A DNA stretch of 64,000 bases from Sorghum bicolor (lineage: Eukaryota > Streptophyta > Magnoliopsida > Poales > Poaceae), in assembly GCF_000003195.3 (NCBI RefSeq), contig NC_012873.2, positions 48,517,166 to 48,581,165 of the forward strand, written 5' to 3'. Positions 6,550 to 31,543 of the stretch are shown here, piece by piece. The notes under the pieces are model-generated. The model was not told the DNA's origin, did no database searches, and saw nothing but the letters and a program-made list of their open reading frames with translations. Within the stretch, counting starts at the first letter, position 1. Every line of letters starts with the position of its first letter. The translations under genes were made by a program, and so were the position numbers.

Positions 6550-6597
6550 GGACCCAAACAAGTATGGGTACCTAAGAAACATTAATTTGTTTTGTAG

Positions 6598-9861: not shown

Positions 9862-12800
9862 TGTGGCAGAACCTCCTAAGTGTTTGGGCCCACCGACACC
9901 TGCCATTGTCCTAAGGACCTCTGACGGTGATGCCGGGAGTCCTCCCACTTTAGAAGTCCGATGAGCATTGCTGGGCGCTCATTCCACTGCTACCTGTGGC
10001 GTACCAAGCTGGCTCGTCCTGACCACTGGTAATGGTCAAACAACGAGAACTGTTTCTTCTCGCCCTTACAGGATAGCAAGTGGCCACTTTAACACCAGGA
10101 TCATTCGTTGCGAAGATAAAGCAGTAACTCAACAACACAAGACCAAAATAATATTTCAGAGTGAAACAGCGGAAGTATTACATAACTTAATTTACAAAAG
10201 GAGTTCTTCCAAATAGTAGAGTGTTATTACAAGCCTGGTCCAGCGGAGCAACTGAAACTTTAGTATAGACAGAACAAAATTACAGACCCTGCCCATGGGT
10301 CACGCTCACTCTTCTTCGTCGTCGACCTCAACGACGGTCACACAACAGGGTCCGAAACAAGTCGGCTCCTGAGCTTCACCTGCAACAGGGGTATTGAAAC
10401 CCTGAGTACGGGAGTACTCAACAAGACTTATCCGACGGGAAAAGAGGAGAATTTAGGGATGCAGGCTTAGGGTAGACAAGGGGTGGCTGAGCAAGGAGCC
10501 AAAGTGTTTTGCGTAAAAGCTTACTAGTAGTGCATCCTTATTTTCAAGTTTTATCCCGAATTCCTCCCTCGCAGAGGCAGAGGAATTCGAGGATAGTCTA
10601 ACTGGTTGTTCCCCACAGACGAATCCGTGAGTTCCTAGTCCTATCATTAAGTATTATTTATCGATGGCCATAGCTTCATGTCGCTATGAGTCCGGGAATT
10701 GGGATCCGAACCTCATGAGACATTTTCCCCTTTCTCATTATATCACTTAGTTGCATATTTAACTACGATGAGGGTCGAAGGAATTGAGTCTCCCAATCGG
10801 GGAGCAACGACGATTCGAATCGCTTAGCAATCCAGCTGGAGTTCCTAACCACCCGACATATGTGGAACCAAATCTTGCATATATCAACCCGAATCAAGCT
10901 CTCCCCAAATTTGACCAGGTTCGCGGCACCCGAGAGCACAGTACTCCACCATCCTACAGCCGATCTAGATGTTTTCCGGTCATCTCAGATCCGTAAGGTT
11001 GGCACACGTTACTCTCGCCATCTTTCCACTCCCAGTGCGCGAGTAGCTGTTCGCGTCGAGGGATTACAAGATCGGGCTTACCGAGGGCAAGTGGCTAGTA
11101 CTATAAATTCTCAACCCAGCAGGCCATCAACGGACCGGTCCTTAATCGACACAGTTGGAGACACTACTTTAAGACTCCATTCTTAAAGCAAGTCCACCGA
11201 CCGGTCTCAACTTAAAACATCATTGATCATAAGTGTATCCCACAACAACCCTTCAATCTTTCTTGTTTAAAAACCTATCTAGTAGCAGGGCTAAGCATCG
11301 CTACGCAGTTTTAAAATAAAACAGGTGTCAAGGACAGGATACAGATATCAAGGTAGTAAATGCAGCAAGTAGGTTAACCCAATTCTCAACTACCTAATGC
11401 AGCATTTTCAATTCATAAGTGACAAAAGGTTTAAAACATCCAAGCAGGGGTTAATGCATCCGGGGCTTGCCTTGGTTGCAGGGCAGAGAGGGACCCTCGG
11501 AGACTTCCCAAGTCTCGGATCCGACTTCCTCGAACGGAGCACCGACCTCGGGGTTCGGTTCAACGGGCGCTCCTTCGGTCACGGACACTATACGCAAAAT
11601 GATGAATGCTTATGATATGCGTATGGCAATTATGCAAGATGGACCGAATTAAGTACGATTTGCCTTTTTAATGCAATACAGAATTGTCACTAAATAAAGT
11701 TGTTTACAATTTACTGTTTTTACCCAAGAGATTGCATCAGTAAATTAAAACTCCTTTTAATTCCTAATTATCCTGAATTAACTAATTATTAATCCTATTT
11801 ACCTTAATCAATTCTTAATTAACTACTAATGACAGTAATTAAGCATTAAAGCTGAACAACAATTAAATGCCAAAGGTCATTAGGGTTAATGACCTCAGGT
11901 CATCACATAATCCAAAATCACTCAACCCTAATTATGAGGACCTAAATAATCACTATTTAATTATTTTGGAATTATTACTTAAGTGTTAAATAAGGGTTTA
12001 TTAATATTTTAAACAAACATTATCCAAATGCCACCAAATTTTGTGGGGAGCCAGGGAACAATATTCAGAGGCATCTCACAATTTTTGGTGATTTTTGGAC
12101 ATACTAACAAATTATTAAAAATCATACAAGTTTTATTTGCTAATTAAAAGGGCCAATTTTTGTAGACATGTAAACTACCAAAAAAAATCCACTATTTTTC
12201 TTGGGTTCTACTTATTTCAGAGAATCTACACAAAAATTTCCATGATTTTTGCATTAACACACGAATTATTACACAAATTCAAACATTCAGCAAAAATTGC
12301 ATAAAAGGAAAAAGGAAAAGATTTTTCGCGCGGCGGGCGGCCTGGAACTTGGCCCGCAAGCCGGCCCACGCGCGCTCGGCCTGCTCACGCGCCGCGTAGA
12401 CGGCCTGCGTGGACACGGTCCACTCTGGCCCGAGCGCTTCCCGCGCCAGCGCCCTCTCCCTCTCTCTCTCACGCGGTCGCTGACGGGCGGGTCCCGCCCG
12501 TCAGCTCCGTCTCCTTCCTAGCGCCGCGGCTCCGGCGAGCTCCAGTGAGCCGTCGGCGAGCTCTCGGCCTTCGCGGCGAGACGTGTTAGCTTCCTCGACC
12601 TCCCGTGCACCCAGGGACACCCTTTTCTCCCACTCTCCTCTATCCTAACCCCTGTGACCACGGGCACGGCGGACGGCCGCCTCAGCCGAGCAGACGCCGG
12701 CCACTACGAGCGAGTAGAGCGTGACTTGAGCAGCGCAAAAGCACCAGGGGCTCACCGCGACTTCAACCGAACAAGAAGCGACAGCGGAGAGGCTCTGGTT

Positions 12801-13974
12801 GACGCTGGCCACGGTGACGTGCTTGCGGTGGCGCTCGGCCGGAGTTGGGGGAGAAACGGCTCGGGTGGAAGCTACGGTAGGATAGAGCGTGTGTTTGGGG
12901 GCGCAATCGGTGGCGGGGCTCACGGCGGAGCTGCTGGGGTGCTCAGGTGGCTTGGAACGGCAGCGAGTGAGGCGAATTGGAGAGGCGCAGGGAGCTCGTC
13001 GGCGTCGGGGTTCAAGAAAAGGAAGAGGGGACTCTGGCCACTCGGGGCTTTATCCCCACAACGGAAGGCGGTTCGCGGATGAGGACGTCCACGCGAAGCA
13101 CAGCAGCAAGCAGCTGCGTGGCCAGCTGCGTGGCGGCGCGCGCGGAGGCGGCTCTGCCCCGGCGGCAGAGCACCCCCCCTGCCGATCACTGTAGCCGGCC
13201 TCATCCACTCAGTTTGTCTTTTTGTGAAATCCGACCAAAATTTGAACTAAAGTCAAATTTCCACCAAAACAAAAGTTGTGCCAAATTTTGTAAGCTACAA
13301 ATCATATTTAGGTGTCCCAAGCTGATTCTCAATGGATCAAGGGTAATTTTGCCAAACAGTTTGAAAATCAAACTCAAATCAAAGAAATTCCAAATTTTTG
13401 AATTGGGGCAAAACAGAATTTCCAGAATTACTTTTGATTTTGTATAACAACTTGAAAAACTCCCAACATGAAAGTTTCTCAACTTTTTGTGATCTACAAC
13501 TTTCATGTTGACCACTTTTTCAAAATTCCAAATGGATTTTGAATTGGGGATTTAAGTTGGAAAAGGGGACACTTTCTGGAAATCTGTATTTTCAAAATTA
13601 CTTTGAATTTTGTATTGAAACTTCAAAAACTCAAAACACCAAAGTTGTACATCTTGCCAAGAGCTACAACTTTGCTTTTGAACTCAACCTCAAATTTTGC
13701 ATAGTTTTTGACTTAAGCAAAAGGGGACAAATCTAGGATCCAGAAATCAGGGTTTTCCCCCCCCCTTAGCTTCTCGGAAAACTTCCACCCTAGGGTTTTA
13801 GCAACCACACAAGCAACAACACACCACAGAAGCACACTCTACTTCCCTAAGCTCAAGCAATCAAAGTAAACTTATTTTAAGTTGATGCATACTAATGTGC
13901 TTTAACAATTATGCTTTGCAATGCTTATGATGACATGATCCGTTTTTAGTAACCGTAACATCAGGGATGTTACA
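9862..13974 (-). repeat. element A 3' LTR (element sense)
   Basis: On the plus strand it runs TGTGGCAGAACC to GATGTTACA. The partner LTR is 19997-24108 with constant offset 10135 until a C-run near 13757 (nine versus eight C). The region from about 12320 to 13200 is GC-rich, while 13210-13740 is AT-rich with repeated hairpins. Many short open frames in the GC-rich part show no recognisable domain. Confidence 0.93.
13464..13674. repeat. inverted-repeat cluster in element A LTR
   Basis: CAACATGAAAGTT (13464-13476) pairs perfectly with AACTTTCATGTTG (13498-13510), and CAAAGTTGTA (13640-13649) pairs with TACAACTTTG (13665-13674). A weaker third pair lies near 13271-13300. They sit in degenerate repeats of 150-200 bases. 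The same arrangement is in the partner LTR 10135 bases further on. Confidence 0.7.
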
Positions 13975-14012
13975 GCCCTTCCCCCTTAAAGAAATCTCGT
14001 CCCCGAGATTTA
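13975..14012 (-). promoter_or_regulatory. element A polypurine tract and adjacent hairpin
   Basis: On the minus strand a purine run TTAAGGGGGAAGGG ends next to the LTR start TGTAACATCC. Just upstream in element sense is the inverted repeat AAATCTCG / CGAGATTT (13992-13999, 14004-14011). A GGGGACGAGATTT-like block before the PPT recurs in Tekay-type elements. Confidence 0.75.
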
Positions 14013-14179: not shown

Positions 14180-17100
14180 TCATATATGGTCCTGAAGAGA
14201 AGCATAGAATTCAGGAAAATTCTCTAGCAAGTAATCTTCAGATTCCCAGGTGGCTTCTTCTTCAGAGTGCTGGCTCCATTGTACCTTATACCATTTGGTG
14301 GTTGTCCTTCGAGTAACTCTAGCTTTTTGATCCAGTACTCGGATAGGATATTCCGAATAAGTTAGATCTGGTTCAAGCTTTACATCTTCAATATCTTGAA
14401 CTCGATCTGGTACCCGAAGACACTTTTTCAGTTGAGACACATGGAACACATTATGTACCCCGGATAATCGTTCGGGCAGTTTAAGGCGGTAAGCGACCTG
14501 CCCACATCGGTCAATAATTGGAAATGGACCAATGTAACGAGGCGCTAACTTGCCTTTAACACCAAAACGATTTACTCCTTTCATTGGGGATACTTTCAAA
14601 TACACATGATCACCCTTGGTGAACCTTAATGGTCGACGCCTTTTATCAGCGTAACTTTTCTGTCGGGACTGAGCAACTTTCAAGTTATTTTGGATTTGTT
14701 TCACTTTGTTCTCAGTCTCTTTCACTAAGTCAACTCCGAAGAACCATCTTTCTCCAGGTTCTGACTAGTGTAACGGAGTTCGACATCGGCGACCATACAG
14801 TGCCTCAAAGGGAGCCATTTTGATACTCTCTTGATAGCTATTATTGTAGGAAAATTCTGCTAGAGGCAAGCAGTCATCCCACTTATCTGGAAAATTCAGG
14901 GCACAAGATCTTAATAGATCTTCTAGGGTTTGATTTACCCTTTCAGTTTGCCCACCGGTTTGAGGGTGGTAGGCTGTGCTATATAAAAGCTTAGTGCCCA
15001 AGGACTCATGTAAACATTTCCAGAATTGGGAGACAAATTGTGTGCCTCTATCTGACACTATTGTCTTTGGCACTCCATGCAGACTTAGGATACGGTCGAA
15101 ATAAATCTTAGCACAGGTGGAGGCAGGATACAATAGCTTTACCGGCAGAAAATGTGCTGTTTTGGTGAGGCGATCTACTATGACCCAAATGGAATCAAAG
15201 CCCTTGGCCGTCTTGGGCAATCCTACTATGAAATCCATACTTATGTCATCCCATTTCCATGCGGGGATAGGCAAAGGTTGCAACTCCCCAGCGGATTTGA
15301 GATGAATGGCTTTGACCTTTCGACAGGTGTCACATTGGGCCACATAGCGAGCTATTTCTATCTTCATTTTTGTCCACCAAAACCTTTGCTTCAGGTCCTG
15401 ATACATCTTATTGCTTCCCGGATGAATAGAATACCTCGTGGTATGAGCTTCATCTAGGATTTGCTGACGTAGCTCAGGTACCTTTGGAACCACTAACCGG
15501 TTCTTGAACCAGATTACTCCCGCATCATCCACCTTAAAGTCTGTGGGTGCTCTATTAGAAATCTTCTCTTTAAGATGTCTCATGCCTTTGTTTTCTTTTT
15601 GTGCCTTTATGATTTGAGCCTCGAGATTGAAATCAATCTTTAAATTGGAAAGGCTTCCTTGGGAAATCATTTCTATTCCCAAGTTCTCTAGCTCTTGGCA
15701 CAAAGTTATATCCCTAGGCGTCACTGTTAAGCAATTACAGTGAGCCTTACGACTGAGGGCATCCGCTACTACATTTGCCTTGCCAGGGTGATAATGCACC
15801 TCAAGGTCGTAATCTTTAATTAGTTCTAGCCACCTTCGCTGGCGCATATTAAGCTCAGCTTGAGTAAAGATATACTTCAAGCTTTTGTGATCTGTATATA
15901 CATGACATGTGTTTCCCAACAAATAATGACGCCAGATCTTTAATGCATGTACCACGGCGGCTAGTTCGAGATCATGGGTCGGGTAATTCTCTTCATGAGG
16001 TTTGAGTTGTCTGGAAGCATATGCAATTACGCGACCCTCCTGCATCAGCACACAGCCTAACCCGATCCCTGATGCGTCACAATATACATCAAAGGGTTTT
16101 TCAATATCTGGCTGGGCTAAGACAGGTGCAGTTGTCAACAACCTTTTCAGAGTCTGAAAAGCTTGCTCACATTGGGGTGACCAAACAAATTTTGTTTGAC
16201 TTTTGAGCAAGGTTGTGATTGGTTTGGCGACTCTGGAAAAGTCCGGGATGAAACGACGGTAATATCCCGCCATGCCCAGAAAACTACGGACCTCATGCAC
16301 CGTAGTCGGGGGTTTCCAATTCAACACATCTTCTACCTTGCCTGGGTCTACAGCGACTCCTTCCGCTGATAATACATGACCCAGGAAATGGACTTTGTCC
16401 AGCCAGAACTCACATTTGCTGAACTTGGCATATAGCTGATGCTCCCTGAGACGGGTCAGCACGATTCTCAAGTGTTCAGCATGTTCCTTCTTAGTTTTGG
16501 AGTAAATCAAGATGTCATCGATGAAGACGACCACAAATTTGTCTAGTTCTGGCATGAAGACAGAGTTCATCAGGTACATAAAATGGGCCGGTGCGTTGGT
16601 CAACCCAAACGACATCACCAAGTACTCATACAGCCCATAACGGGTTGTAAAAGCTGTCTTGGGCACATCTTCCGGCCTAATTTTAATTTGGTGGTACCCT
16701 GATCTCAAATCAATTTTTGAGAACACTTTGGCCCCAGCTAGCTGGTCAAACAATAAGTCAATGCGGGGCAATGGGTACTTGTTCTTAATCGTCACCTCAT
16801 TTAGAGGACGATAATCGACACACAGCCTTAATGTCTGATCTTTCTTCTTCACAAACAAGGCTGGGCAACCCCATGGAGAAGAACTGGGCTGAATAAAACC
16901 CTTCTGCAACAACTCTTGTAATTGGGTTTTTAATTCGGCCAGCTCTTTCGGTGCCATTCTGTAGGCCCTTCGAGATATTGGGGCCATTCCTGGTTTCAAT
17001 TCTATACTGAATTGTACATCCCGGTCCGGAGGCAGACCTGGTAAGTCTTCAGGAAATACATCCGGAAAATCTCGAACTACCGGAATATCTTTGACTTCAG

Positions 17101-18712
17101 ACACATTTGCGGCATGAACTTGCCCAATTGTCCGTTTGGGAGTAACTAATTGGATTAGCAAATAAGAATTCTCATTGGGCAATGGGATTTTAATGGTTCG
17201 GTGCAAGGTGTCTAGCACAACCCCTCGTTGCGCCATCCAGTTCATGCCTAAGATGACATCAATTTCTTGGTCCTTAAGAACAATCATGCTAGTAGGAAAA
17301 TTGTGCCCACCAAATTCGATGGGTACTTGGTGAACCATTTCTTTAGACAGCAGCCGTCCTCCTGGCGACTGTATATAAAAATGATCTTGTGTTTCCCCAA
17401 TGGGTATGCCATGCTTTAACACAAAGGTGCGATTGATAAATGTATGAGATGCACCAGAATCAAAGAGCATTAAAGCAGGATGCTTCGCAACAGGAAACGT
17501 ACCCATCATCACTGGTTCACCCTCTGGAATTGTCTCCACTTCAGTATGGAAGACTTGCCCTGTCTTCTTTACCGGTCTACCTTTCTGTACCTGTTGCCCT
17601 TTTTGAACCCCAGTTCTGAACTGACCCGGCTGGGGTTGGCCCATAGGTGGCCTTGGAAAGGTAGGGTTGGTTTGACGGGGAAAAGGGCACTCTTTAGAGA
17701 AATGCCCAGGTTTACCACAATTGAAGCAAGGGTAATTGTGGCTGGGCGGAGCAGTAGGGCGAACACCCGGGGCGTTCGGCTGGCGTGGTGCAAAAGCGAT
17801 GGCAGTAGGTCGAGAATATACCTGCTGCCCGGGTCTGTACTGTGGAGGGGAGAAAGGACCACGATAAGGTAACGGCGTTTGGAAACGTCCGTGGCCCTGT
17901 GGATGATAAATGATCCTCTGGCGCTTTTGACCGCGACCAGAGAAAGAAGAGGAAGCAGCCTTCTTCTTGGCTTCCTTATGTTTCCTATTCTTTTCCTCTG
18001 AGGCGATAGCAATATTTACCGCCTCATAGAAAGTAGCATTTTGGCAAGTGGTCATCATGGTCTGAAGTTTAGTATTTAGACCACGCATGAAACAGGCTTT
18101 CCTCTTTCTATTAGTGTTCACATGATCCGTGGCATATTGAGAGAGATGATTAAACCTTGCCACGTATTCCATAACACTTTTATCGCCTTGCTGCAAGGCG
18201 AGAAACTCTTCGGCCTTCATGGCCATGAGCCCTTCGGGGATGTAGTGGGCGCGGAACGCGTCCCTAAATTCAGTCCAAGTGACTTGGTGTCCGGGAGCTT
18301 GAATAGCTAAGAAGTTCTCCCACCAGGCACCTGCAGCTCCCCGAAGCTGCTGAGCTGCAAATAAGGGTTTCTGAGTTTCTGAACACTGAATCAAACTAAA
18401 CTTATGCTCCATAGTTCGGAGCCAGTCATCCGCTTCTAAAGGCTCATCGGCCTTAGTGAACACCGGGGGCCTGGTCTCGGTAAAGTCCACATACCGAGCC
18501 TCTCCGTCCCCGTTGCGCGGTGCCCTGAAGTTTGGAGCAGGGTGTGTTTGACGCTGTGCTAGCTCGCGCAGCAAGCGAGCGTTGTCAGTTGTGGCACTTA
18601 GCAGGACAGCAATGGCGTCAGCCAAAGAAGGTGGAGCAGGTGGAGGGTTGGGGATATCATCCCCTCCCTGGGATGTCCCAGCCCCATCGGATCCGCGAGT
18701 ACGCATCGGCAT
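14180..18712 (-). pseudogene. gag-pol: element A gag-pol polyprotein with chromodomain, one in-frame stop
   Basis: A single frame starts at ATG 18712 and ends at 14180, about 1510 codons, broken only by TAG at 14765-14767 (codon 1316). Domains in order: retrotransposon Gag (about residues 110-210), CCHC knuckle [14 protein letters not shown] (about 330), protease DSGASHTF (about 416), RT with FIDDILIYS (about 728), RNase H starting FDVYCDASG (about 878), integrase zinc finger H..H..CDTC (about 1090-1135), DDE core with [15 protein letters not shown] and QTERVNQ, then after the stop the GPF/Y segment (YIGPFPI) and a chromodomain with KWYKVQW and ATWES (about 1455-1505). The stop removes the GPF/Y region and chromodomain from the translated protein. 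The rest looks intact. Confidence 0.93.
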
Positions 18713-18919
18713 CTGTTACAAGAATCGTAGATACCTGTTACCACGTAAGATTCATAACACAGAACATATCTTCCATTCACTTATTAAACATTAGTTAGAT
18801 ACACACCAAGAGTAAACAAGTACAACTTTTCAAACCAAAAGAGAACTTATATTACAAACCCGAACCCCACTATGGCAAGCTAAGACCCCTACAACGACGT
18901 TGCCCTCGGTTTCACCGAA
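18713..18919 (-). other. spacer between accessory ORF and gag-pol of element A
   Basis: About 200 bases separate the accessory ORF stop (18920) from the gag-pol start (18712). In gag-pol frame it is not open throughout, so gag-pol needs its own initiation, splicing or reinitiation. I see no clear promoter. Confidence 0.4.
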
Positions 18920-19624
18920 CTAATCGGTGTGGCCAGAGCTGTAGCCCGGGTCGTCATTGCCATCATCTTGATTACCCCCTGGGTTGTGGTCATCGGGGTC
19001 GGACTCCTCTTCATCACTGAGGCCTGGATCGGGTTCTCCATCGTCTGCCAACTCGCCATCCGTATCCATTTCTCCTTCGCCGGGAGGTGGATGGAGTTGA
19101 TGATACAGATTAAATGCAATATCACGATACTGCATAGCCAAGTCATTGACTGTATCCAAGTGATGTGCCAGCTCCAGTTTCTCCAGCTGGAGCTGGTCCT
19201 CTCGTTGCCACGCGACATCCCGTTGTGCGGTGACCGTGGCCGCCATCTTCACATACAAATCCTTAAGATACTTTGCCTTGCCCAACTTTGCGTTCATCCT
19301 AGTTAGCTCATGCCTATGGGTGCTCCTAGCTTCTTCCTCTCGGGCAATGGCTGCATTCCGCTCCTCCACCATCCGGGACAACATAGCTTCACAATTTTCT
19401 GTAGCTTGTTTTTCTTTGGCCAGTTGAGCTTTAAGTTTGCCAATCTCCATAACATTGTACATTCTCTCTCTCATCACCTCAGTCAACTCGGCGGACAACC
19501 TGTCCACCTCCTGCTGAGGCGGTGAACGGCTACTACTGGCTTGATCACTGCGTGGAGCTAGCTGATGTCGGGGAACTCCTTTTGGACCAGTCCGCTTACG
19601 CGGGGTCTGCTTCTGACGAGCCAT
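18920..19624 (-). CDS. element A accessory ORF with histone H3-like N-terminus (234 aa)
   Basis: An intact ORF upstream of gag-pol in element sense; the ATG is 19622-19624 and begins right after the leader. Residues 1-13 are MARQKQTPRKRTG; residues 15-23 are KGVPRHQLA. Aligned to the histone H3 tail (ARTKQTARKSTGGK, then APRKQLA), the match keeps positions equivalent to R2, K4, Q5, T6, R8, K9, T11, G12, K14, P16, R17, Q19, L20 and A21, with one inserted residue after K14. Then comes a Ser-rich linker (about 30-38), a long charged predicted coiled coil (about 40-150) and a strongly acidic Asp/Glu/Pro C-terminus (about 178-234). No known enzyme domain. Role unknown; a reader-binding mimic or chance similarity are both possible. 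Confidence 0.8.
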   Translation of the reverse strand: MARQKQTPRKRTGPKGVPRHQLAPRSDQASSSRSPPQQEVDRLSAELTEVMRERMYNVMEIGKLKAQLAKEKQATENCEAMLSRMVEERNAAIAREEEARSTHRHELTRMNAKLGKAKYLKDLYVKMAATVTAQRDVAWQREDQLQLEKLELAHHLDTVNDLAMQYRDIAFNLYHQLHPPPGEGEMDTDGELADDGEPDPGLSDEEESDPDDHNPGGNQDDGNDDPGYSSGHTD

Positions 19625-19996
19625 CCTGTAGAGGGTAAGTTTAGATGAATAAGAGAGACCTTAAAGGTTAGCAAGAATAGGATTGATTCTATTCACCCAA
19701 CCCAACAAGGAGGAAGGAACTTAACCAGTTAATACATCATGATGCATGCACGAACTTACGATTCCTACTAACAATTCGTAACAACAGTACCTTAAATTTT
19801 TACAACATAGGGCAATACTTTAGGTTGCTCCTCCATACCACTTCAAAAATTCTCAGAAAGCCTATAGACAGGGGTAGATTAGGACTAAGCACTTGGACTC
19901 AAAATAGGCAGGTTCATAATATTAGTTCCAAACGAATTTTTGAAGTTTTTCAAAAGGTTCAGCAGTCATCTTAGCAACGAATGCTCTGATACCAGC
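19625..19996 (-). promoter_or_regulatory. element A leader with primer-binding site
   Basis: In element sense the 5' LTR ends at 19997, two bases follow, and TGGTATCAGAGC reads from 19994 to 19983, complementary to initiator methionine tRNA. The remaining 360 bases to the accessory ORF are untranslated leader with no other visible feature. Confidence 0.85.
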
Positions 19997-22900
19997 CGTG
20001 GCAGAACCTCCTAAGTGTTTGGGCCCACCGACACCTGCCATTGTCCTAAGGACCTCTGACGGTGATGCCGGGAGTCCTCCCACTTTAGAAGTCCGATGAG
20101 CATTGCTGGGCGCTCATTCCACTGCTACCTGTGGCGTACCAAGCTGGCTCGTCCTGACCACTGGTAATGGTCAAACAACGAGAACTGTTTCTTCTCGCCC
20201 TTACAGGATAGCAAGTGGCCACTTTAACACCAGGATCATTCGTTGCGAAGATAAAGCAGTAACTCAACAACACAAGACCAAAATAATATTTCAGAGTGAA
20301 ACAGCGGAAGTATTACATAACTTAATTTACAAAAGGAGTTCTTCCAAATAGTAGAGTGTTATTACAAGCCTGGTCCAGCGGAGCAACTGAAACTTTAGTA
20401 TAGACAGAACAAAATTACAGACCCTGCCCATGGGTCACGCTCACTCTTCTTCGTCGTCGACCTCAACGACGGTCACACAACAGGGTCCGAAACAAGTCGG
20501 CTCCTGAGCTTCACCTGCAACAGGGGTATTGAAACCCTGAGTACGGGAGTACTCAACAAGACTTATCCGACGGGAAAAGAGGAGAATTTAGGGATGCAGG
20601 CTTAGGGTAGACAAGGGGTGGCTGAGCAAGGAGCCAAAGTGTTTTGCGTAAAAGCTTACTAGTAGTGCATCCTTATTTTCAAGTTTTATCCCGAATTCCT
20701 CCCTCGCAGAGGCAGAGGAATTCGAGGATAGTCTAACTGGTTGTTCCCCACAGACGAATCCGTGAGTTCCTAGTCCTATCATTAAGTATTATTTATCGAT
20801 GGCCATAGCTTCATGTCGCTATGAGTCCGGGAATTGGGATCCGAACCTCATGAGACATTTTCCCCTTTCTCATTATATCACTTAGTTGCATATTTAACTA
20901 CGATGAGGGTCGAAGGAATTGAGTCTCCCAATCGGGGAGCAACGACGATTCGAATCGCTTAGCAATCCAGCTGGAGTTCCTAACCACCCGACATATGTGG
21001 AACCAAATCTTGCATATATCAACCCGAATCAAGCTCTCCCCAAATTTGACCAGGTTCGCGGCACCCGAGAGCACAGTACTCCACCATCCTACAGCCGATC
21101 TAGATGTTTTCCGGTCATCTCAGATCCGTAAGGTGGGCACACGTTACTCTCGCCATCTTTCCACTCCCAGTGCGCGAGTAGCTGTTCGCGTCGAGGGATT
21201 ACAAGATCGGGCTTACCGAGGGCAAGTGGCTAGTACTATAAATTCTCAACCCAGCAGGCCATCAACGGACCGGTCCTTAATCGACACAGTTGGAGACACT
21301 ACTTTAAGACTCCATTCTTAAAGCAAGTCCACCGACCGGTCTCAACTTAAAACATCATTGATCATAAGTGTATCCCACAACAACCCTTCAATCTTTCTTG
21401 TTTAAAAACCTATCTAGTAGCAGGGCTAAGCATCGCTACGCAGTTTTAAAATAAAACAGGTGTCAAGGACAGGATACAGATATCAAGGTAGTAAATGCAG
21501 CAAGTAGGTTAACCCAATTCTCAACTACCTAATGCAGCATTTTCAATTCATAAGTGACAAAAGGTTTAAAACATCCAAGCAGGGGTTAATGCATCCGGGG
21601 CTTGCCTTGGTTGCAGGGCAGAGAGGGACCCTCGGAGACTTCCCAAGTCTCGGATCCGACTTCCTCGAACGGAGCACCGACCTCGGGGTTCGGTTCAACG
21701 GGCGCTCCTTCGGTCACGGACACTATACGCAAAATGATGAATGCTTATGATATGCGTATGGCAATTATGCAAGATGGACCGAATTAAGTACGATTTGCCT
21801 TTTTAATGCAATACAGAATTGTCACTAAATAAAGTTGTTTACAATTTACTGTTTTTACCCAAGAGATTGCATCAGTAAATTAAAACTCCTTTTAATTCCT
21901 AATTATCCTGAATTAACTAATTATTAATCCTATTTACCTTAATCAATTCTTAATTAACTACTAATGACAGTAATTAAGCATTAAAGCTGAACAACAATTA
22001 AATGCCAAAGGTCATTAGGGTTAATGACCTCAGGTCATCACATAATCCAAAATCACTCAACCCTAATTATGAGGACCTAAATAATCACTATTTAATTATT
22101 TTGGAATTATTACTTAAGTGTTAAATAAGGGTTTATTAATATTTTAAACAAACATTATCCAAATGCCACCAAATTTTGTGGGGAGCCAGGGAACAATATT
22201 CAGAGGCATCTCACAATTTTTGGTGATTTTTGGACATACTAACAAATTATTAAAAATCATACAAGTTTTATTTGCTAATTAAAAGGGCCAATTTTTGTAG
22301 ACATGTAAACTACCAAAAAAAATCCACTATTTTTCTTGGGTTCTACTTATTTCAGAGAATCTACACAAAAATTTCCATGATTTTTGCATTAACACACGAA
22401 TTATTACACAAATTCAAACATTCAGCAAAAATTGCATAAAAGGAAAAAGGAAAAGATTTTTCGCGCGGCGGGCGGCCTGGAACTTGGCCCGCAAGCCGGC
22501 CCACGCGCGCTCGGCCTGCTCACGCGCCGCGTAGACGGCCTGCGTGGACACGGTCCACTCTGGCCCGAGCGCTTCCCGCGCCAGCGCCCTCTCCCTCTCT
22601 CTCTCACGCGGTCGCTGACGGGCGGGTCCCGCCCGTCAGCTCCGTCTCCTTCCTAGCGCCGCGGCTCCGGCGAGCTCCAGTGAGCCGTCGGCGAGCTCTC
22701 GGCCTTCGCGGCGAGACGTGTTAGCTTCCTCGACCTCCCGTGCACCCAGGGACACCCTTTTCTCCCACTCTCCTCTATCCTAACCCCTGTGACCACGGGC
22801 ACGGCGGACGGCCGCCTCAGCCGAGCAGACGCCGGCCACTACGAGCGAGTAGAGCGTGACTTGAACAGCGCAAAAGCACCAGGGGCTCACCGCGACTTCA

Positions 22901-24108
22901 ACCGAACAAGAAGCGACAGCGGAGAGGCTCTGGTTGACGCTGGCCACGGTGACGTGCTTGCGGTGGCGCTCGGCCGGAGTTGGGGGAGAAACGGCTCGGG
23001 TGGAAGCTACGGTAGGATAGAGCGTGTGTTTGGGGGCGCAATCGGTGGCGGGGCTCACGGCGGAGCTGCTGGGGTGCTCAGGTGGCTTGGAACGGCAGCG
23101 AGTGAGGCGAATTGGAGAGGCGCAGGGAGCTCGTCGGCGTCGGGGTTCAAGAAAAGGAAGAGGGGACTCTGGCCACTCGGGGCTTTATCCCCACAACGGA
23201 AGGCGATTCGCGGATGAGGACGTCCACGCGAAGCACAGCAGCAAGCAGCTGCGTGGCCAGCTGCGTGGCGGCGCGCGCGGAGGCGGCTCTGCCCCGGCGG
23301 CAGAGCACCCCCCCTGCCGATCACTGTAGCCGGCCTCATCCACTCAGTTTGTCTTTTTGTGAAATCCGACCAAAATTTGAACTAAAGTCAAATTTCCACC
23401 AAAACAAAAGTTGTGCCAAATTTTGTAAGCTACAAATCATATTTAGGTGTCCCAAGCTGATTCTCAATGGATCAAGGGTAATTTTGCCAAACAGTTTGAA
23501 AATCAAACTCAAATCAAAGAAATTCCAAATTTTTGAATTGGGGCAAAACAGAATTTCCAGAATTACTTTTGATTTTGTATAACAACTTGAAAAACTCCCA
23601 ACATGAAAGTTTCTCAACTTTTTGTGCTCTACAACTTTCATGTTGACCACTTTTTCAAAATTCCAAATGGATTTTGAATTGGGGATTTAAGTTGGAAAAG
23701 GGGACACTTTCTGGAAATCTGTATTTTCAAAATTACTTTGAATTTTGTATTGAAACTTCAAAAACTCAAAACACCAAAGTTGTACATCTTGCCAAGAGCT
23801 ACAACTTTGCTTTTGAACTCAACCTCAAATTCTGCTTAGTTTTTGACTTAAGCAAAAGGGGACAAATCTAGGATCCAGAAATCAGGGTTTTCCCCCCCCT
23901 TAGCTTCTCGGAAAACTTCCACCCTAGGGTTTTAGCAACCACACAAGCAACAACACACCACAGAAGCACACTCTACTTCCCTAAGCTCAAGCAATCAAAG
24001 TAAACTTATTTTAAGTTGATGCATACTAATGTGCTTTAACAATTATGCTTTGCAATGCTTATGATGACATGATCCGTTTTTAGTAACCGTAACATCAGGG
24101 ATGTTACA
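19997..24108 (-). repeat. element A 5' LTR (element sense)
   Basis: Partner of 9862-13974; 4112 bases, with base 19997 being C where the partner has T. It carries the same GC-rich centre and hairpin cluster. It ends GATGTTACA at 24108, followed by GCTAG and immediately the LTR of element B. Confidence 0.93.
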
Positions 24109-24113
24109 GCTAG
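24109..24113. repeat. single 5-mer GCTAG shared as flank by elements A and B
   Basis: The only sequence between A's end (24108) and B's start (24114). A's left flank is GTTAG (9857-9861) and B's right flank is GTTAG (38415-38419). The middle copy differs by one base. All three fit one GTTAG target in the host LTR. Confidence 0.85.
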
Positions 24114-25236: not shown

Positions 25237-28200
25237 ATGTCTACGGGCTCCGGCTACGACATGATCTTGCTCTCAGTCAAAGGACCAGGAGGAGCCCGCG
25301 TTACGCCAGCACGGTTGAAGGCCCCGAGACGCCCTCACCACCACGCCTCCCCGCCTAAGAAGAGGCGCGGACAGCACCACCGCGGCCCCTCTGCTTCAGC
25401 ACGACCAACAACTCGTGCGAGGCAGGGCGTAGGCCACAAGTCGGCGGCACCGTGGGACGGAGCAACAAGCGCGACGACTCAGCACCGCGCGACGACGGGA
25501 GGTGACACGTCTCGCGCGCTCTCCCCCACCGCTGCTAGGCTACTTCCACACGGGTTGTTCACTCCAAGAGCGGCACTGCCGTTCGGATTGGACAACGCCG
25601 CGGCGTCGCTCGCCAGGACGATATGCCCAAACGCCCAGACGTACGTAGAAAGACCAATGGTCCTCCCACGTAGCTCTGAAGCGCGGCAGTCGGCGTTCGA
25701 GCTGCCGGACCTTTCCCGAGTACAAGGCCTCCGTCGTCTAGGCCCCGGACGATACTCGATCACCTCCCTCAGGCAACGATTGCTGGAGGAAGGACGTGGG
25801 TGTTTCTACGCCTCCGAACCGGACTCCGACTCCGAGACGGACAGCTATGACCCTACGAGGGAATGCTATCACATTGACGGGGCGGTAGAAACTACTGACG
25901 AGACCCGGGATGCTGCTGCGGGAGGTCGAGCCCCCGCGGCGCGAGAAGACCCCAGGACGCCTGGGAACGACGGACAGGTCGACCCCCCTCATCATGAAGA
26001 CAGAACCGCGCAGCTCGCGCAGCTGCGGGAGCTCAAGATGAAGCTCGACGAAGACCGCGAGCGCCTCGTCCTGCTCGAGCAAATCCTCGAGCAAGACCTG
26101 CCCTACCCGCCGGGCGGAAGTGTCCGCAGACGCGCTCGAGAGGTACATCGACAGATCGTCGGCGACTCAGAGCCAGAGCAACCTGTCGGTCGTTTCCCTC
26201 GAGCAGGCCAGAATGTAGTGGCAGCGACGATGCTGCTACGTAACATGCCAGAGCCGTCGAATTCCCAGGCCCGATGCATTCGAGATGAGGTACAGACATT
26301 GCTCCAGGTGGCGGCGGTTCAACAAGCCGAAAGTTCGGCGTCTCGACAGCGAGGAGCTGCCACAGAGAAGCGCGACGAACAGCCTCTAAACGAAGAGGAG
26401 GTGTCAGTCCAACAACAACCTCCCCCTCGAGGTAGAAAGACCGCTCTCATCCTCCCCGTCGACGGTCAACATCGACACGACGCGCGGCACGACATCAAAG
26501 AAAATCGACGCCGCCGGCACGGAGACGCGGAAGAGCGCGGTTATAGCGCGCATCGCGGTGGGAGATACGACAGCGACGAGGACCGGGTGGCCCCCGAGCC
26601 ACCAGGCCCACGGGTGTTCAGTAGGGCGATCCGCAGCACGCCCCTGCCCAATCCATTTCGACCCCCGACCAGCATCGCGAAGTATAATGGAGAGACCAAA
26701 CCAGAGTTGTGGCTGGCCGACTTCAGGCTGGCCTGTCAGCTAGGTGGCGCTCGAGGTGATGATCGAGCCATCATCAGACAGCTACCCCTTTTCCTCTCTG
26801 ACACCGCCCGTCGATGGCTCGAGGAACTCCCCGCCAATCAGATCCACAACTGGGTTGATCTGGTCAGAGTCTTCGAGGGTAACTTCAAAGGGACCTACAT
26901 ACGACCAGGGAACTCATGGGACCTCAGCAAGTGCAAGCAGAAGTCAGGAGAAACTCTTCGGGAGTATGCTCGGCGCTTCTCGAAGCAGCGCACTGAGCTG
27001 CCGCACATCCCTGACCACGACGTCATCTTGGCGTTTGTCTCGGGCACCACCAGTCGAGACTTGGTGCGGGAATTAGGTCGCAATCGACCTCAGACCGTCG
27101 ACGAGCTGATGGACGTAGTAGCCAACTACGCGGCAGGGGAGGAGGCAGTCGGCACCTTCTTCAGCTCAGAAGGAAGGAAAGGCAAGCAGCCCATCAACGA
27201 AGATGGGACCCCCAGTCGAGGCCTCAAGAAAAACAAAAAGAAGCAAAAAGTGCGGCAGTTCCACCGGGAAGATTCCGATGACAACCTTGTCGCCGCCATG
27301 GATCGAAAGAAGCCTCGAGGCCCTCCGGATGGAGGCATCTTTGACAAGATGTTGGAGGAGCCGTGCCCTTACCATAAGGGAGGCGCCAACCACAAGCTCA
27401 AGGACTGTCGTATGCTGAGAAAGCATTTCGACGGTCAGGGGTTCAAAAAAGATACGTGTGATGACTCCAAGAAAGAGAAGGCTGGCAGCAAGGAGGACAA
27501 CAAAGATGACGACGGCTTCCCCGCCGTCCACGACTGCTACATGATCTATGGCGGGCCCTCGACCCAGTTGACCACGAGGCAGCACAAAAGGGAGCGTCGC
27601 GAAGTCTTTGCAGCAAGAATGGCGGTGCCCCAATACCTTAGCTGGTCAAGCACTCCTATCACTTTCGACCGAGAAGACCACCCCGACAAGGTACTCGCCC
27701 CAGGCGTCTACCCGCTCGTCGTCGACCCCATCATCGTCAACACCCGGCTCTCGAAAGTGCTAATGGACGGCGGTAGCAGCCTCAACATCATCTACCTCGA
27801 GACCCTTGACCTCCTCGGCATAGATAGAGGGAAGCTCCAACCAAGTGCCGGCGGGTTCCATGGCGTCGTGCCAGGAAAAAAGGCGCTGCCAGTAGGTCGA
27901 ATTGACTTACCGGTCTGCTTCGGCACGGCGGCCAACTTCAGGAAGGAGACCCTCACCTTCGAGGTGGTTGGGTTTCGAGGCACGTACCACGCCATCATCG
28001 GGCGCCCGGGCTACGCCAAGTTCATGGCTATACCCAACTACACCTACTTGAAGCTGAAGATGCCCGGTCCCAAAGGTGTCATCACTGTCAGTTCCTCCTT
28101 CGAGCACGCGTACGAGTGCGACGTCGAGTGCGTCGAGTACGGGGAGGTGGTCGAGAACTCCACCGAGCTCGTCGCGAAGCTCGAGGCCCTGGCCGCTGAG

Positions 28201-28326
28201 GCTCTAGAGCCTAAGCGCCACGCGGGCAGCTTCGAGGCGGCGGAAGGAACCAAGAAGATCCCGCTCGACCCCAACAGCTCCGACGGCAAAGTACTGACGA
28301 TCAGCACCGACCTCGACCCCAAATAG
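25237..28326 (+). CDS. gag-pro: element B gag-protease (1029 aa)
   Basis: The frame is open from the LTR, but 25237 is the first ATG after the PBS in this frame (MSTGSGYD). A long basic, low-complexity N-terminal part runs to about residue 465. The retrotransposon Gag domain follows (about 470-630, with WLADF, RRWLEELP and LREYARRF). Then come a Lys-rich linker, a zinc-knuckle-like CPYHKGGANHKLKDC (about 710) and a retropepsin with DGGSS (about 844; substitution DGG for DSG is normal in Tat). It ends at TAG 28324-28326; the same frame continues straight into RT, so the stop either needs readthrough or is a nonsense mutation. Confidence 0.88.
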   Translation: MSTGSGYDMILLSVKGPGGARVTPARLKAPRRPHHHASPPKKRRGQHHRGPSASARPTTRARQGVGHKSAAPWDGATSATTQHRATTGGDTSRALSPTAARLLPHGLFTPRAALPFGLDNAAASLARTICPNAQTYVERPMVLPRSSEARQSAFELPDLSRVQGLRRLGPGRYSITSLRQRLLEEGRGCFYASEPDSDSETDSYDPTRECYHIDGAVETTDETRDAAAGGRAPAAREDPRTPGNDGQVDPPHHEDRTAQLAQLRELKMKLDEDRERLVLLEQILEQDLPYPPGGSVRRRAREVHRQIVGDSEPEQPVGRFPRAGQNVVAATMLLRNMPEPSNSQARCIRDEVQTLLQVAAVQQAESSASRQRGAATEKRDEQPLNEEEVSVQQQPPPRGRKTALILPVDGQHRHDARHDIKENRRRRHGDAEERGYSAHRGGRYDSDEDRVAPEPPGPRVFSRAIRSTPLPNPFRPPTSIAKYNGETKPELWLADFRLACQLGGARGDDRAIIRQLPLFLSDTARRWLEELPANQIHNWVDLVRVFEGNFKGTYIRPGNSWDLSKCKQKSGETLREYARRFSKQRTELPHIPDHDVILAFVSGTTSRDLVRELGRNRPQTVDELMDVVANYAAGEEAVGTFFSSEGRKGKQPINEDGTPSRGLKKNKKKQKVRQFHREDSDDNLVAAMDRKKPRGPPDGGIFDKMLEEPCPYHKGGANHKLKDCRMLRKHFDGQGFKKDTCDDSKKEKAGSKEDNKDDDGFPAVHDCYMIYGGPSTQLTTRQHKRERREVFAARMAVPQYLSWSSTPITFDREDHPDKVLAPGVYPLVVDPIIVNTRLSKVLMDGGSSLNIIYLETLDLLGIDRGKLQPSAGGFHGVVPGKKALPVGRIDLPVCFGTAANFRKETLTFEVVGFRGTYHAIIGRPGYAKFMAIPNYTYLKLKMPGPKGVITVSSSFEHAYECDVECVEYGEVVENSTELVAKLEALAAEALEPKRHAGSFEAAEGTKKIPLDPNSSDGKVLTISTDLDPK

Positions 28327-31300
28327 GAAGCGGTGCTCGTCGACTTTCTCCGTGCAAATGCCGACATGTTTGCATGGAGTCCCTCGGACATGCCAGGCAT
28401 ACTGAGGGAAGTCGCCGAGCACTCCTTGGAGATTCGAGCCGGTTCCAAGCCAGTGAAGCAGCGGTTGCGTCAATTCGACGAGGAGAAGCGCAAGATCATT
28501 GGCGAGGAAGTCCACAAGCTTTTGACGGCCGGATTCATCAAGGAGGTTCATCATCCTGACTGGTTAGCAAACCCTGTATTAGTTAAGAAAAAGAATGGGA
28601 AAATGAGGATGTGTGTCGATTATACTAGTCTGAATAAAGCATGTCCGAAAGTTCCCTTTCCATTGCCACGCATTGATCAGATTGTCGATTCTACCGCGGG
28701 ATGTGAAACCCTTTCTTTCCTTGATGCATATTCTGGTTACCACCAAATAAAAATGAAGGAGTCCGACCAGCTCGCGACCTCTTTCATCACGCCTTTTGGG
28801 ATGTATTGCTATGTGACCATGCCATTCGGGCTTCGAAACGCGGGAGCCACGTATCAACGTTGCATGCTCCACATGTTTGGCGAACATATAGGGTCCACGG
28901 TCGAGGCCTACGTCGACGACATTGTCGTCAAGTCAAAGCGACGAGGAGACCTAATCCAGGACCTCGAGATTGCCTTTAGCTGCCTACGCACCAGCCGGAT
29001 CAAGCTCAATCCCGAGAAGTGCGTTTTCGGTGTGCCTCGAGGCATGCTCCTAGGTTACATCGTTTCGCAGCGCGGCATCGAGGCCAACCCCAAGAAAGTC
29101 TCGGCCATCACGAAAATGGGGCCGATCCGAGACATCAAGGGTGTACAGAGAGTCACGGGGTGCCTGGCGGCTCTGAGCCGTTTCATCTCGAGACTAGGAG
29201 AAAAGGCATTTCCATTATATCGACTCCTAAAGAAGGTCGAGCGTTTTTCTTGGACCCCCGAGGCCGAGGAAGCACTCGAAAGGCTGAAGAAGACGTTGAC
29301 CTCGGCCCCAGTCCTGGTTCCACCTCAACCTGCAGAGCCGCTGCTCCTCTACGTCGCATCGACGACCCAGGTCATCAGCGCGGCGGTGGTGGTCGAAAGA
29401 CAAGAGGAGGGTCATGCGCTGCCGGTCCAAAGGCCAGTCTATTTCGTCAGCGGAGACCAAGATGCGTTATCCCCAAATCCAGAAGCTGATCTACGCCGTA
29501 ATCCTTGCCCGCCGCAAGCTGCAGCATTACTTCCTCGGTCACCCCATCACGGTGGTTTCGTCTTTCCCTTTAGGAGAAATAATCCAGAGCAAAGAGGCCA
29601 CGGGAAGAATAGCAAAATGGTCGGTCGAGCTCATGAGTGAGACTCTCACTTACACGCCTCGGAAGGCCATCAAATCGCAAGCCCTGGTAGACTTCGTCGC
29701 GGAATGGACGGACTCCCAGCTTCCCCCGACTCAGGTCCAGGCGGAGCTGTGGACAATGTATTTCGACGGGTCACTCATGAAAACTGGGGCCGGGGCCGGC
29801 CTGCTGTTCATCTCACCCTTAGGCGTCCACATGAGGTATGTAATCAGGATTCATTTTGCCGCATCTAACAATGTCGCAGAATATGAGGCCCTGGTCAACG
29901 GTCTCAAGATCGCTATCGAGTTAGGAGTCCGACGCCTCGACGTCCGAGGTGACTCCCAACTCGTCATCGACCAAGTAATGAAAACCTCGAGCTGCCACGA
30001 CCCAAAAATGGAAGCGTACTGCAAGGAGCTCCGCCGACTCGAAGACAGGTTCCACGGTCTCGAGCTTGTCCATGTCGCTCGACGCTACAACGAGGCAGCC
30101 GACGAACTCGCCAAGATCGCATCGACCAGAGGCACGGTGCCGCCTGATGCATTCTCAAAAGATCTTCATGAGCCATCCGTCGACCTAGGCACGGGGGCTG
30201 GCGTCGACGCCACCACCGCCCAACCAGCCAACGCTGTCGATACGCTCTTGATGGTGGAAGAAATGATGGGGATAGAACGACGACCAGGTCGACCATTCGA
30301 TTGGCGCACACCGTTCCTCGACTGCCTTATCCGCGGCGAATTGCCAGAAGACAAGTCAGAAGCTCGTCGTAAGGCTCGGCGGGCCAAATCATATGTGATC
30401 TATGGCGAAGACAACGAGCTATATCGACGGAGCCCGACGGGGGTCTTGCAACGTTGCATCACTGTGGAAGAAGGCCGAAAACTCCTCGATGACCTGCACT
30501 CGGGGGCTTGCGGTCACCACGCCGCTCCACGGACCCTTGTAGGGAACGCTTTTCGACAAGGCTTCTACTGGCCAACGGCCGTGGCGGACGCCATCGAGCT
30601 CGTAAGATCATGTCACGGGTGTCAGTTCTACGCCAAGCAGACGCATCTGCCTGCCCACGCTCTTCAGATGATCCCCATTACCTGGCCGTTTGCGGTGTGG
30701 GGGCTCGATTTAGTAGGACCTCTGCAAAAGGCAAAAGGAGGATTCACCCATTCGCTGGTGGCCATTGACAAGTTCTCCAAATGGATCGAGGCTCGACCCA
30801 TCACCAACATCCGCTCCGAGCAGGTCGTCCTTTTCTTTACCGACATTATCCATCGGTTTGGGATCCCCAATGTCATCATCACCGACAACGGCACCCAGTT
30901 CACCGGCAAAAAGTTCTTGGACTTCTGCGATCGGCATCACATCCGTGTGAACTGGTCTGCAGTCGCCCACCCTCGAACTAACGGCCAAGTCGAGCGTGCC
31001 AACGGCATGATTTTGCAAGGACTCAAGCCAAGGATCTACAATCGATTGAAGAAATTCGGCAAAAAATGGGTCGAGGAGCTTTCCTCAGTCCTATGGAGCC
31101 TTAGGACAACACCAAGCAGGGCCACAAAATACACCCCGTTCTTCATGGTCTACGGCTCTGAGGCCATCCTCCCCACAGACCTCGAGTATGGCTCACCTCG
31201 ACTCAAGGCCTACAACGAGCAATCGAACAAAGAGACTCAAGAAAACGCGGTCGACCAACTTGAGGAGGCTAGAGACATGGCCCTCCTCAACTCTGCTAGA

Positions 31301-31543
31301 TATCAGCAAAGGCTTCAACGCTACCACGACAAGCATGTGCGCAAGAGGGACCTCAACGTGGGCGACCTAGTCCTACGACGCCGGCAAAGCAATCAGGGAC
31401 GCCACAAGCTGACCCCGCCTTGGGAAGGTCCGTACGTGGTAGCCGAGGTCCTGAAGCCGGGAACGTACAAGCTGGCGGACGAAAAAGGGGCAATTCTCAC
31501 CAACGCATGGAACATCGAACAGCTACGTCGATTCTACCCCTAG
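28327..31543 (+). pseudogene. pol: element B pol: RT, RNase H, second RNase H, integrase (frameshifted)
   Basis: RT runs from about 28450 with YVDDIVVKS at 28909-28935. The gypsy RNase H region follows. At about 29451 the sequence reads GTCAGC|GGAGACC, whereas element C has 11 extra bases at this point, so B carries an 11-base deletion that shifts the frame. Pol then continues open (to 31543): a second, archaeal-type RNase H with MYFDGS and NNVAEYEAL (about 29755-30130), an integrase zinc finger (H..H..CHGC, about 30500-30635) and the DDE core with GLDLVGP, TDNGTQF and QVERANG (30700-31000). The stop TAG is at 31541. A dual RNase H is diagnostic of the Tat branch. Confidence 0.92.

Follow-up and report, generated by a model that had tools for sequence, protein, structure and literature searches.

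The locus analysed here raises the question of whether the accessory protein of a plant retrotransposon begins with a copy of the histone H3 tail and, if so, what such a tail might do for the element. Retrotransposons in plant genomes are silenced through methylation of H3K9 and of DNA. Should an abundant element, present here in at least 150 copies at 97-100% identity, make a look-alike of the substrate of that silencing, the 5' accessory ORFs of chromodomain elements would gain a testable role. Throughout the text, the window denotes the whole stretch of DNA that was analysed, 64 kb in length.

A recently inserted chromodomain element with an accessory gene

The ORF in question belongs to an LTR retrotransposon that reads along the minus strand of the window. 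The parts of the element, in reading order, are the following:

19998..24110, minus strand: 5' LTR, from the LTR-LTR alignment
19983..19994, minus strand: primer-binding site TGGTATCAGAGC, directly inside the 5' LTR
19624..18920, minus strand: accessory ORF (ORF0, or 5' additional ORF), 234 aa
19547..19624, minus strand: H3-tail-like block MARQKQTPRKRTGPKGVPRHQLAPRS, residues 1-26 of the accessory protein, from the H3 alignment and family comparison; disordered in the AlphaFold2 model
19094..19519, minus strand: single long alpha helix, residues 36-177, AlphaFold2 pLDDT mostly 95-97
18923..19093, minus strand: acidic disordered C-terminal tail, residues 178-234, from charge and AlphaFold2
14765..18712, minus strand: gag-pol ORF with gag, zinc knuckle, protease, RT, RNase H and integrase, from the ORF list and Pfam
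14180..14584, minus strand: ORF with the C-terminal SH3-like part of integrase and the chromodomain, from the ORF list and Pfam
14207..14338, minus strand: chromodomain, type II-like with an incomplete aromatic cage, from Pfam (PF00385, E 6e-7) and alignments
9863..13976, minus strand: 3' LTR, from the LTR-LTR alignment

The two LTRs form a 4114-bp alignment with six mismatches and one gap (99.83% identity), so that the insertion is recent, and the flanking pentamers CTAGC and CTAAC constitute an imperfect 5-bp target duplication. The primer-binding site TGGTATCAGAGC is presumably of the initiator tRNA-Met type. A Gypsy gag-pol in which integrase is followed by a chromodomain is a feature of Tekay/Del elements, and it is present here in the Pfam domains and their order, with the chromodomain in a separate frame; we infer that this is a Tekay-type chromodomain retrotransposon. 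Because the chromodomain lies in an ORF (14584..14180) separate from gag-pol, the pol frame is interrupted in the window copy. A preliminary description of this locus had stated that the same element encodes a chromodomain, and the Pfam match bears this out, though in the separate ORF.

The accessory ORF extends on the minus strand from an ATG at 19624 to a stop at 18920-18922 (234 codons), and the coordinates given in the preliminary description, 18920..19624, were exact. Frame 1 of the opposite strand is not open over the same coordinates and contains three stops. Barring seven short upstream ATGs, the ORF is the first long one after the primer-binding site. This site is found ahead of ORF0 in all eight near-identical loci checked, the window locus among them, and the start of gag was located in six of the eight, at a spacing of 912, 918 or 920. 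The accessory ORF and gag share a frame in this copy, but read-through from one into the other is unlikely, as five stops, including that of the accessory ORF itself, stand between them.

The accessory protein begins like histone H3

Residues 1-23 of the accessory protein align to the initiator Met and residues 1-21 of H3 with 16/22 identities and one inserted residue. The alignment thus agrees, when Met is counted, with the match of 16 in 22 and one insertion that had been read from the sequence at the outset, and R2, K4, R8, K9, K14 and R17 of H3 are all present in the window protein, as had also been claimed. The local score against H3 was 68 and the best of 20,000 shuffles, made with the first Met fixed, scored 57, so that none of them reached it. 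The six frames of the window contain 706 N-termini that start with Met, and the next-best H3 score among these was 33.

Single-sequence searches gave weaker signals. With phmmer against the PDB, the top match of the window protein was a chorismate mutase (E 0.083) and H3 chains appeared at E 0.31-1.8 (among the best 60 of 87 matches). The relative P0084 matched an H3-type chain first (E 0.006) and PI3K coiled-coil chains next (E 0.010). A profile of 16 family members, hand-picked for diversity, had H3 as its best match among solved structures (E 6e-7); the best 60 of its 169 matches were all H3 or H3 variants, and the top alignment paired residue 1 with residue 1. The profile scored 30.2 bits against one H3; with the columns of the block permuted, the score did not exceed 8.3 in any of 200 trials. 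The shuffles and the family profile place the N-terminal tail feature of histone H3 in the accessory protein, and the H3 resemblance of its N-terminus is confirmed.

The remainder of the protein is not histone-like: no histone family occurs in the Pfam tables, and the AlphaFold2 model (21 sequences in the alignment, single chain, pTM 0.39) shows one helix, residues 36-177, in place of a histone fold. Residues 1-35 are unstructured in this model, with 10-residue pLDDT means of 54-68. Judging from the model, we take the helix to be a coiled coil that would form an oligomer. No Pfam family exceeds the curated cut-off for the window protein or for P0084, and the relatives P0084, P0089 and P0091 bear precomputed coiled-coil labels (PF17675, PF08614). 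The net charge over the last 45 residues of the window protein is -17.

Conservation of the H3-like block across relatives

Three protein searches yielded a family of 149 proteins including the query, to which the third contributed the best 120 of its 180 matches. The block was complete in 110 of these proteins, cut at the start in two and not found by its anchor in 37. Since the queries of the second and third searches contained the block, counts out of 110 are enriched for it; this bias is limited, without being removed, by the 57 matches of the first search (21 with the block and 36 starting after it) and by links based on the core of the protein only. Of these 37 proteins, all but one begin at reference position 34 or beyond and so resemble truncated ORF calls; one of the 36, P0008, carries eight unrelated residues ahead of reference position 42. 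The remaining protein has an altered form of the block. The preliminary description had named homologues lacking the H3-like residues as evidence that would count against it, and among these 37 proteins none clearly has an intact, different N-terminus.

We grouped the 110 proteins by greedy clustering at 60% identity on the part after residue 26, which gave 15 clusters, two of whose representatives (P0138 and P0066) are short. With the block removed, the 15 clusters still join as one family (phmmer, E up to 1e-3, database size 5.8 billion). Mean pairwise identity between representatives was 73% in the 26-residue block and 29% in the rest, and the block was the more similar part in all 102 pairs compared; the other three of the 105 pairs, with fewer than 60 aligned columns, were left out. 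The block has a net charge of +5 to +8 in all 15 representatives. The last 45 residues are negative in 13 of the 15, the remaining two being a 94-residue fragment and a protein at +3.

The positions of the H3 tail are kept to very different degrees. K9 is present in 15/15 clusters (109/110 proteins), T6 in 15/15 (104/110) and R8 in 14/15 (94/110), and the combination T6-x-R8-K9 occurs in 14/15 clusters and 88/110 proteins. Other well-kept positions are L20 (15/15 clusters), G12, R17, Q19 and A21 (14/15 each) and T11 (13/15). Less well kept are A1 (11/15), R2 and T3 (10/15 each), K14 (9/15), Q5 (7/15) and S10 (4/15); A7 is retained in 6/15 clusters and is P in 7/15, including the cluster of the window protein. 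K4 is K in 12/15 clusters and R in the remaining 3/15; among the 110 proteins, K occurs in 61 and R in 48. A Met-Ala start is found in 56/110 proteins and 11/15 clusters. In the largest cluster, of 45 members, the representative carries R at K4 and one additional residue at its N-terminus. By these counts, the shared centre of the mimicry is T6-x-R8-K9-x-T11-G12, not A1-R2-T3-K4. The free N-terminus and K4 region conserved in SNAG-type sequences are not kept, with A1 and T3 variable and K4 changed in 3/15 clusters.

Four features of the block depart from H3 in every cluster (15/15 each): G13 is replaced by P, A15 by G and K18 by H, and a V is inserted. In Met-based numbering these are P14, G16, H20 and V17, non-H3 residues that are as invariant as the H3 ones, which weakens a reading of the block as pure mimicry. 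The sequence MARTKQTARK is found exactly as in H3 in two clusters, those of P0080 and P0084, which the rest of the protein links to each other only through other clusters. The H3K9-mimic motif [GCSAKLN]RK[TGQSVMALNKER] has been given for mammalian EHMT2 (PMC10611923). The window protein, with PRKR at the K9 site, misses this motif, which is mammalian, and plant enzymes may differ; 45/110 proteins and 6/15 clusters fit the mammalian motif.

Purifying selection among copies in the same genome

The host genome contains 1475 candidate matches to the accessory ORF, of which 150 were scored; these are 97-100% identical, and 145 are without a stop. For variant counts we used 68 copies, the eight best and 60 picked from the 150, three of which have a stop. 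Variants present in at least three of the 68 copies comprised 0 nonsynonymous and 7 synonymous changes in the block and 15 and 68 in the rest; the 7 such variants of the block are too few to support a difference between regions. Single-copy variants were 8 nonsynonymous and 8 synonymous in the block and 43 and 45 elsewhere, near-equal numbers that fit decay of the copies once inserted. In an earlier count, which covered 28 copies and variants in at least two of them, the block had 1 nonsynonymous and 4 synonymous and the rest 12 and 40.

More distant paralogues were collected with a 71%-identical relative as query, giving 128 loci and, with the window copy, 129 sequences. After removal of 51 sequences (19 with stops, 32 on account of length), 78 full-length, stop-free ones remained, from which 13 lineages more than 6% apart were chosen for dN/dS. 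The block had dS 1.12 and dN/dS 0.077 (bootstrap range 0.030-0.157), the rest of the protein dS 1.02 and dN/dS 0.096 (0.071-0.127), with 0.090 in the helix and 0.122 in the acidic tail. The accessory protein is under purifying selection, the absence of which from the H3-like stretch had been named in the preliminary description as evidence against its reading. The block fell below the rest in 1407 of 2000 bootstraps, which does not show a difference between them. Synonymous sites of the block are as diverged as those elsewhere (pS 0.58 versus 0.56), which indicates that the constraint acts on protein and not on RNA, and a nucleotide-level cause of the conservation of the block is rejected.

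Across the 13 same-genome lineages, K4, Q5, T6, K9, the R at the S10 position and G12 are invariant. A1 is G in 11/13 lineages, T3 is L, W or Q in 13/13, and R8 is H or C in four. Two expectations of the preliminary description thus fared unevenly. Stronger conservation of the block than of the coiled coil was found across deep families (73% versus 29%) but not within the genome (dN/dS 0.077 versus 0.096). Retention of the key H3 residues was found for K9 in all clusters, whereas K14 is kept in only 9/15, K4 is R in 3/15, K18 is H in 15/15, and most same-genome lineages have other residues at A1 and T3. Overall, the earlier interpretation is partly supported.

Origin and possible function of the tail

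The H3-like block most likely descends from the histone H3 tail as captured host coding sequence, since it is collinear with H3, starts at the initiator Met and comes closest to H3 in two clusters that are linked only via others. That a retrotransposon protein under selection carries a conserved tail derived from H3 is well supported. For its function we favour, with a probability of roughly 40%, a reading in which a 5' accessory gene with a captured H3 tail would encode a nuclear, oligomeric bait for host proteins that bind the K9 region of the H3 tail. The starting point is the selected ORF with its H3-like unstructured tail, long helix and acidic tail, joined to the strongly supported origin of the tail from H3. 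The helix would then form a coiled-coil oligomer that displays several H3-like tails, with the acidic tail at the other end. In the nucleus, where the protein would presumably act, these tails may engage host proteins that recognise H3 around K9; candidate partners are a chaperone of H3 and the proteins that write or read marks in the H3K9/DNA-methylation silencing loop. More speculatively, these partners could be drawn off the element, so that its silencing is lowered or redirected, or the element's complexes could be tethered to chromatin.

This bait reading is favoured by K9 in 109/110 proteins, by the identity of the block (0.73 versus 0.29) and by its dN/dS of 0.077. Counting against it are P at A7 in 7/15 clusters, the PRKR of the window protein, which is off the mammalian EHMT2 motif, the variation at K14 and the loss of K18. 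The dN/dS of block and rest are also alike within the genome, and P0084 matches the PI3K coiled coil about as well as H3.

The first alternative, possible though on balance unlikely, is that the captured tail is a signal for nuclear import or chromatin retention, acting via importins or nucleosomal DNA and carrying the protein, perhaps with Gag or integrase, without any mimicry of histone marks. The H3 tail is itself an import signal, and the positive charge of the block in 15/15 representatives fits such a role. Other Tekay 5' ORFs are predicted to be nuclear (PMC11728184). Charge would suffice for import, yet T6, G12, Q19, L20, A21 and the Met-numbered G16 and V17 are kept in 14-15 of the 15 clusters. 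K14 and K18 are lysines important for the import of H3, and here the first varies and the second is H.

Somewhat less probable still is that the block began as an H3 fragment and is now an element-specific interface, for Gag, for the element's own type II-like chromodomain or for RNA, with the resemblance to H3 a relic. The four non-H3 residues P14, G16, V17 and H20 (Met-numbered), invariant in 15/15 clusters while the H3-matching positions 2, 3, 4, 6, 8, 11 and 15 vary, suggest that the block may since have taken on its own interface, and the partners of type II chromodomains are not known (PMC6317226). A mere relic would sit poorly with K9, T6 and R8 being among the best-kept positions and with an exact MARTKQTARK in two clusters that lack a direct link through the rest of the protein. 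The import or retention signal and the element-specific interface are the main rivals of the bait reading, and the data do not separate them from it.

We consider it improbable that the block is a bait for readers of the A1/K4 type (LSD1-like demethylases, PHD fingers), comparable to the SNAG domain of animals. K4, Q5 and T6 are unchanged in 13/13 same-genome lineages, and the Met-Ala start of 56/110 proteins and 11/15 clusters would suit such readers. LSD1-like and PHD readers require a free N-terminus, however, and the representative of the largest cluster has both an extra N-terminal residue and R at K4, a replacement shared by 48/110 proteins; within the genome, A1 is G in 11/13 lineages and T3 is L, W or Q in all 13. 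A chance or convergent low-complexity basic N-terminus, for which the single-sequence E value against H3 of only 0.31 at best (among the best 60 of 87 matches) might be cited, is very improbable and is rejected by 0/20,000 shuffles, a profile E of 6e-7 and 0/200 column permutations.

A broader form of the bait reading strikes us as doubtful: that the family, probably present in many plants, combines a captured and long-maintained H3 tail, multimerised by a coiled coil, with an acidic tail into a nucleosome-like bait for the H3K9 silencing machinery, and would be the first histone-tail mimic encoded by a retrotransposon. If this is true, such a bait would give chromodomain elements a means to steer or blunt their own silencing.

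The chromodomain of the element

The preliminary description had also proposed that the tail could bind the element's own chromodomain. In alignments with Clr4 and CDYL, at positions that we take to be the aromatic cage sites, the middle site retains W and the last has H. Without a gap, the first site is E; HMMER places a one-residue gap that pairs a neighbouring Y with the Y of Clr4. Type II chromodomains have lost the first and usually also the last cage residue, and have no known partner (PMC6317226). By its sequence the chromodomain of this element resembles type II. Because the aromatic cage is incomplete (last site H, first E or Y), a classic methyl-lysine contact between the chromodomain and the H3-like tail looks unlikely, though the two might interact in another way, and binding of the two looks less likely than was proposed. 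If the bait reading is true, the H3-like tail would nonetheless be a candidate partner for type II chromodomains.

Relation to known accessory ORFs and histone mimics

Additional 5' ORFs (ORF0) are known in Tekay/Del chromoviruses, namely Retrosat2, RIRE3, RIRE8 and homologues in maize and sorghum (Gao 2012, PMC3485330), and additional ORFs have been reviewed (PMC7264820). The window element resembles the Retrosat2 type in its extra ORF between 5' LTR and gag-pol and its long LTRs (above 3.2 kb in Retrosat2), and also in fast overall divergence and occurrence in grass genomes including sorghum (PMC3485330). An ORF0 upstream of gag-pol and an LTR above 3 kb are thus both present, as in Retrosat2-like ORF0 elements. 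The difference is that enzyme-like functions were proposed for the latter from homology models (PMC3485330). The LTR ends TGTCACACCC and GGGCGTGACA, described as common to Retrosat2 and RIRE8 (PMC3485330), have no exact match in the window; the LTR of the window element starts with TGTAACATCC, and its 3' copy ends with CTGCCACA.

The 5' additional ORF of sunflower Tekay group 2 encodes a protein predicted to be nuclear, with helices and disorder (PMC11728184). It occupies the same position as the window ORF and shares its helices plus disorder, but is without reported amino-acid similarity to the grass ORFs (PMC11728184). The same study models a sorghum 5' additional ORF (Sb7), which may or may not belong to the family of the window element, and proposes for the maize and sorghum proteins a fold of the dsRNA-binding-like kind. 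The word 'histone' does not occur in the main text of PMC3485330 or in the text of PMC11728184 and PMC7264820, and a review of host factors that treats additional ORFs and chromodomains (PMC12786077) describes no H3-like ORF in its relevant passages.

A literature search for mimicry returned, among the matches listed, no title or abstract opening describing a conserved H3-tail mimic in a retrotransposon. The work of Steinbauerova in Genetica in 2011 reportedly found part of the extra ORFs of grass chromoviruses to be partially similar to the histone H3 gene, and is said to have handled this similarity as gene capture only. Those ORFs are very probably of the same class as the one analysed here (grass chromoviruses, a 5' ORF, similarity to H3). 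If that work did describe it, the H3 resemblance itself is not new.

Mimics of the H3 tail occur in host and pathogen proteins such as EHMT2, the SNAG-domain factors and influenza NS1, in which few residues are copied. The accessory protein resembles them in having a short unstructured stretch that copies an H3 modification site. It differs in length and setting: the collinear stretch covers about 22 residues, starts at the initiator Met and occurs in a transposon protein, across 15 clusters.

Additional observations

We scanned one prokaryote genome per species (84,980 species) with patterns derived from the block, hence not as an independent test of it, and obtained 129 matches, of which three were confirmed, all of them histone H3. 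These three (L001, L002 and L003) are two complete histone H3 genes and one 109-aa ORF that starts as H3, and their contigs, binned as bacterial metagenome-assembled genomes, must be eukaryotic contamination. Scans of viral contigs found no relatives.

The C-termini of P0056, P0084 and P0133 carry hydrophobic-acidic runs (VIYISDD, VVVIDDD and MIIIDDD, respectively), which we take to be like SUMO-interacting motifs; the window protein has none.

The seven short upstream ATGs follow the 5' LTR and precede the accessory ATG, at window positions 19737-19969 on the minus strand. The accessory ATG itself has A at -3 and G at +4. A donor-like ATC|GTAAGT is located at window position 19759 on the minus strand. 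Acceptor-like sequences ending in CAG directly precede the accessory ATG (CTTACCCTCTACAG|G, 19625-19650, minus strand) and the gag ATG (GATTCTTGTAACAG, 18713-18730, minus strand). The former is present with small changes in 8/8 near-identical loci, the window's included, and the latter, also with small changes, in 6/8, those with gag located. Alternative splicing at these donor- and acceptor-like sequences could choose which ORF comes first.

The plus strand of the window carries further retrotransposon sequences. Large ORFs at 25237-31543, with gag-, RT- and integrase-like translations by eye, mark a second Ty3/gypsy-like element, and Ty1/copia-like ORFs with zinc-knuckle gag and integrase-like translations, likewise by eye, are found at 4915-8301.
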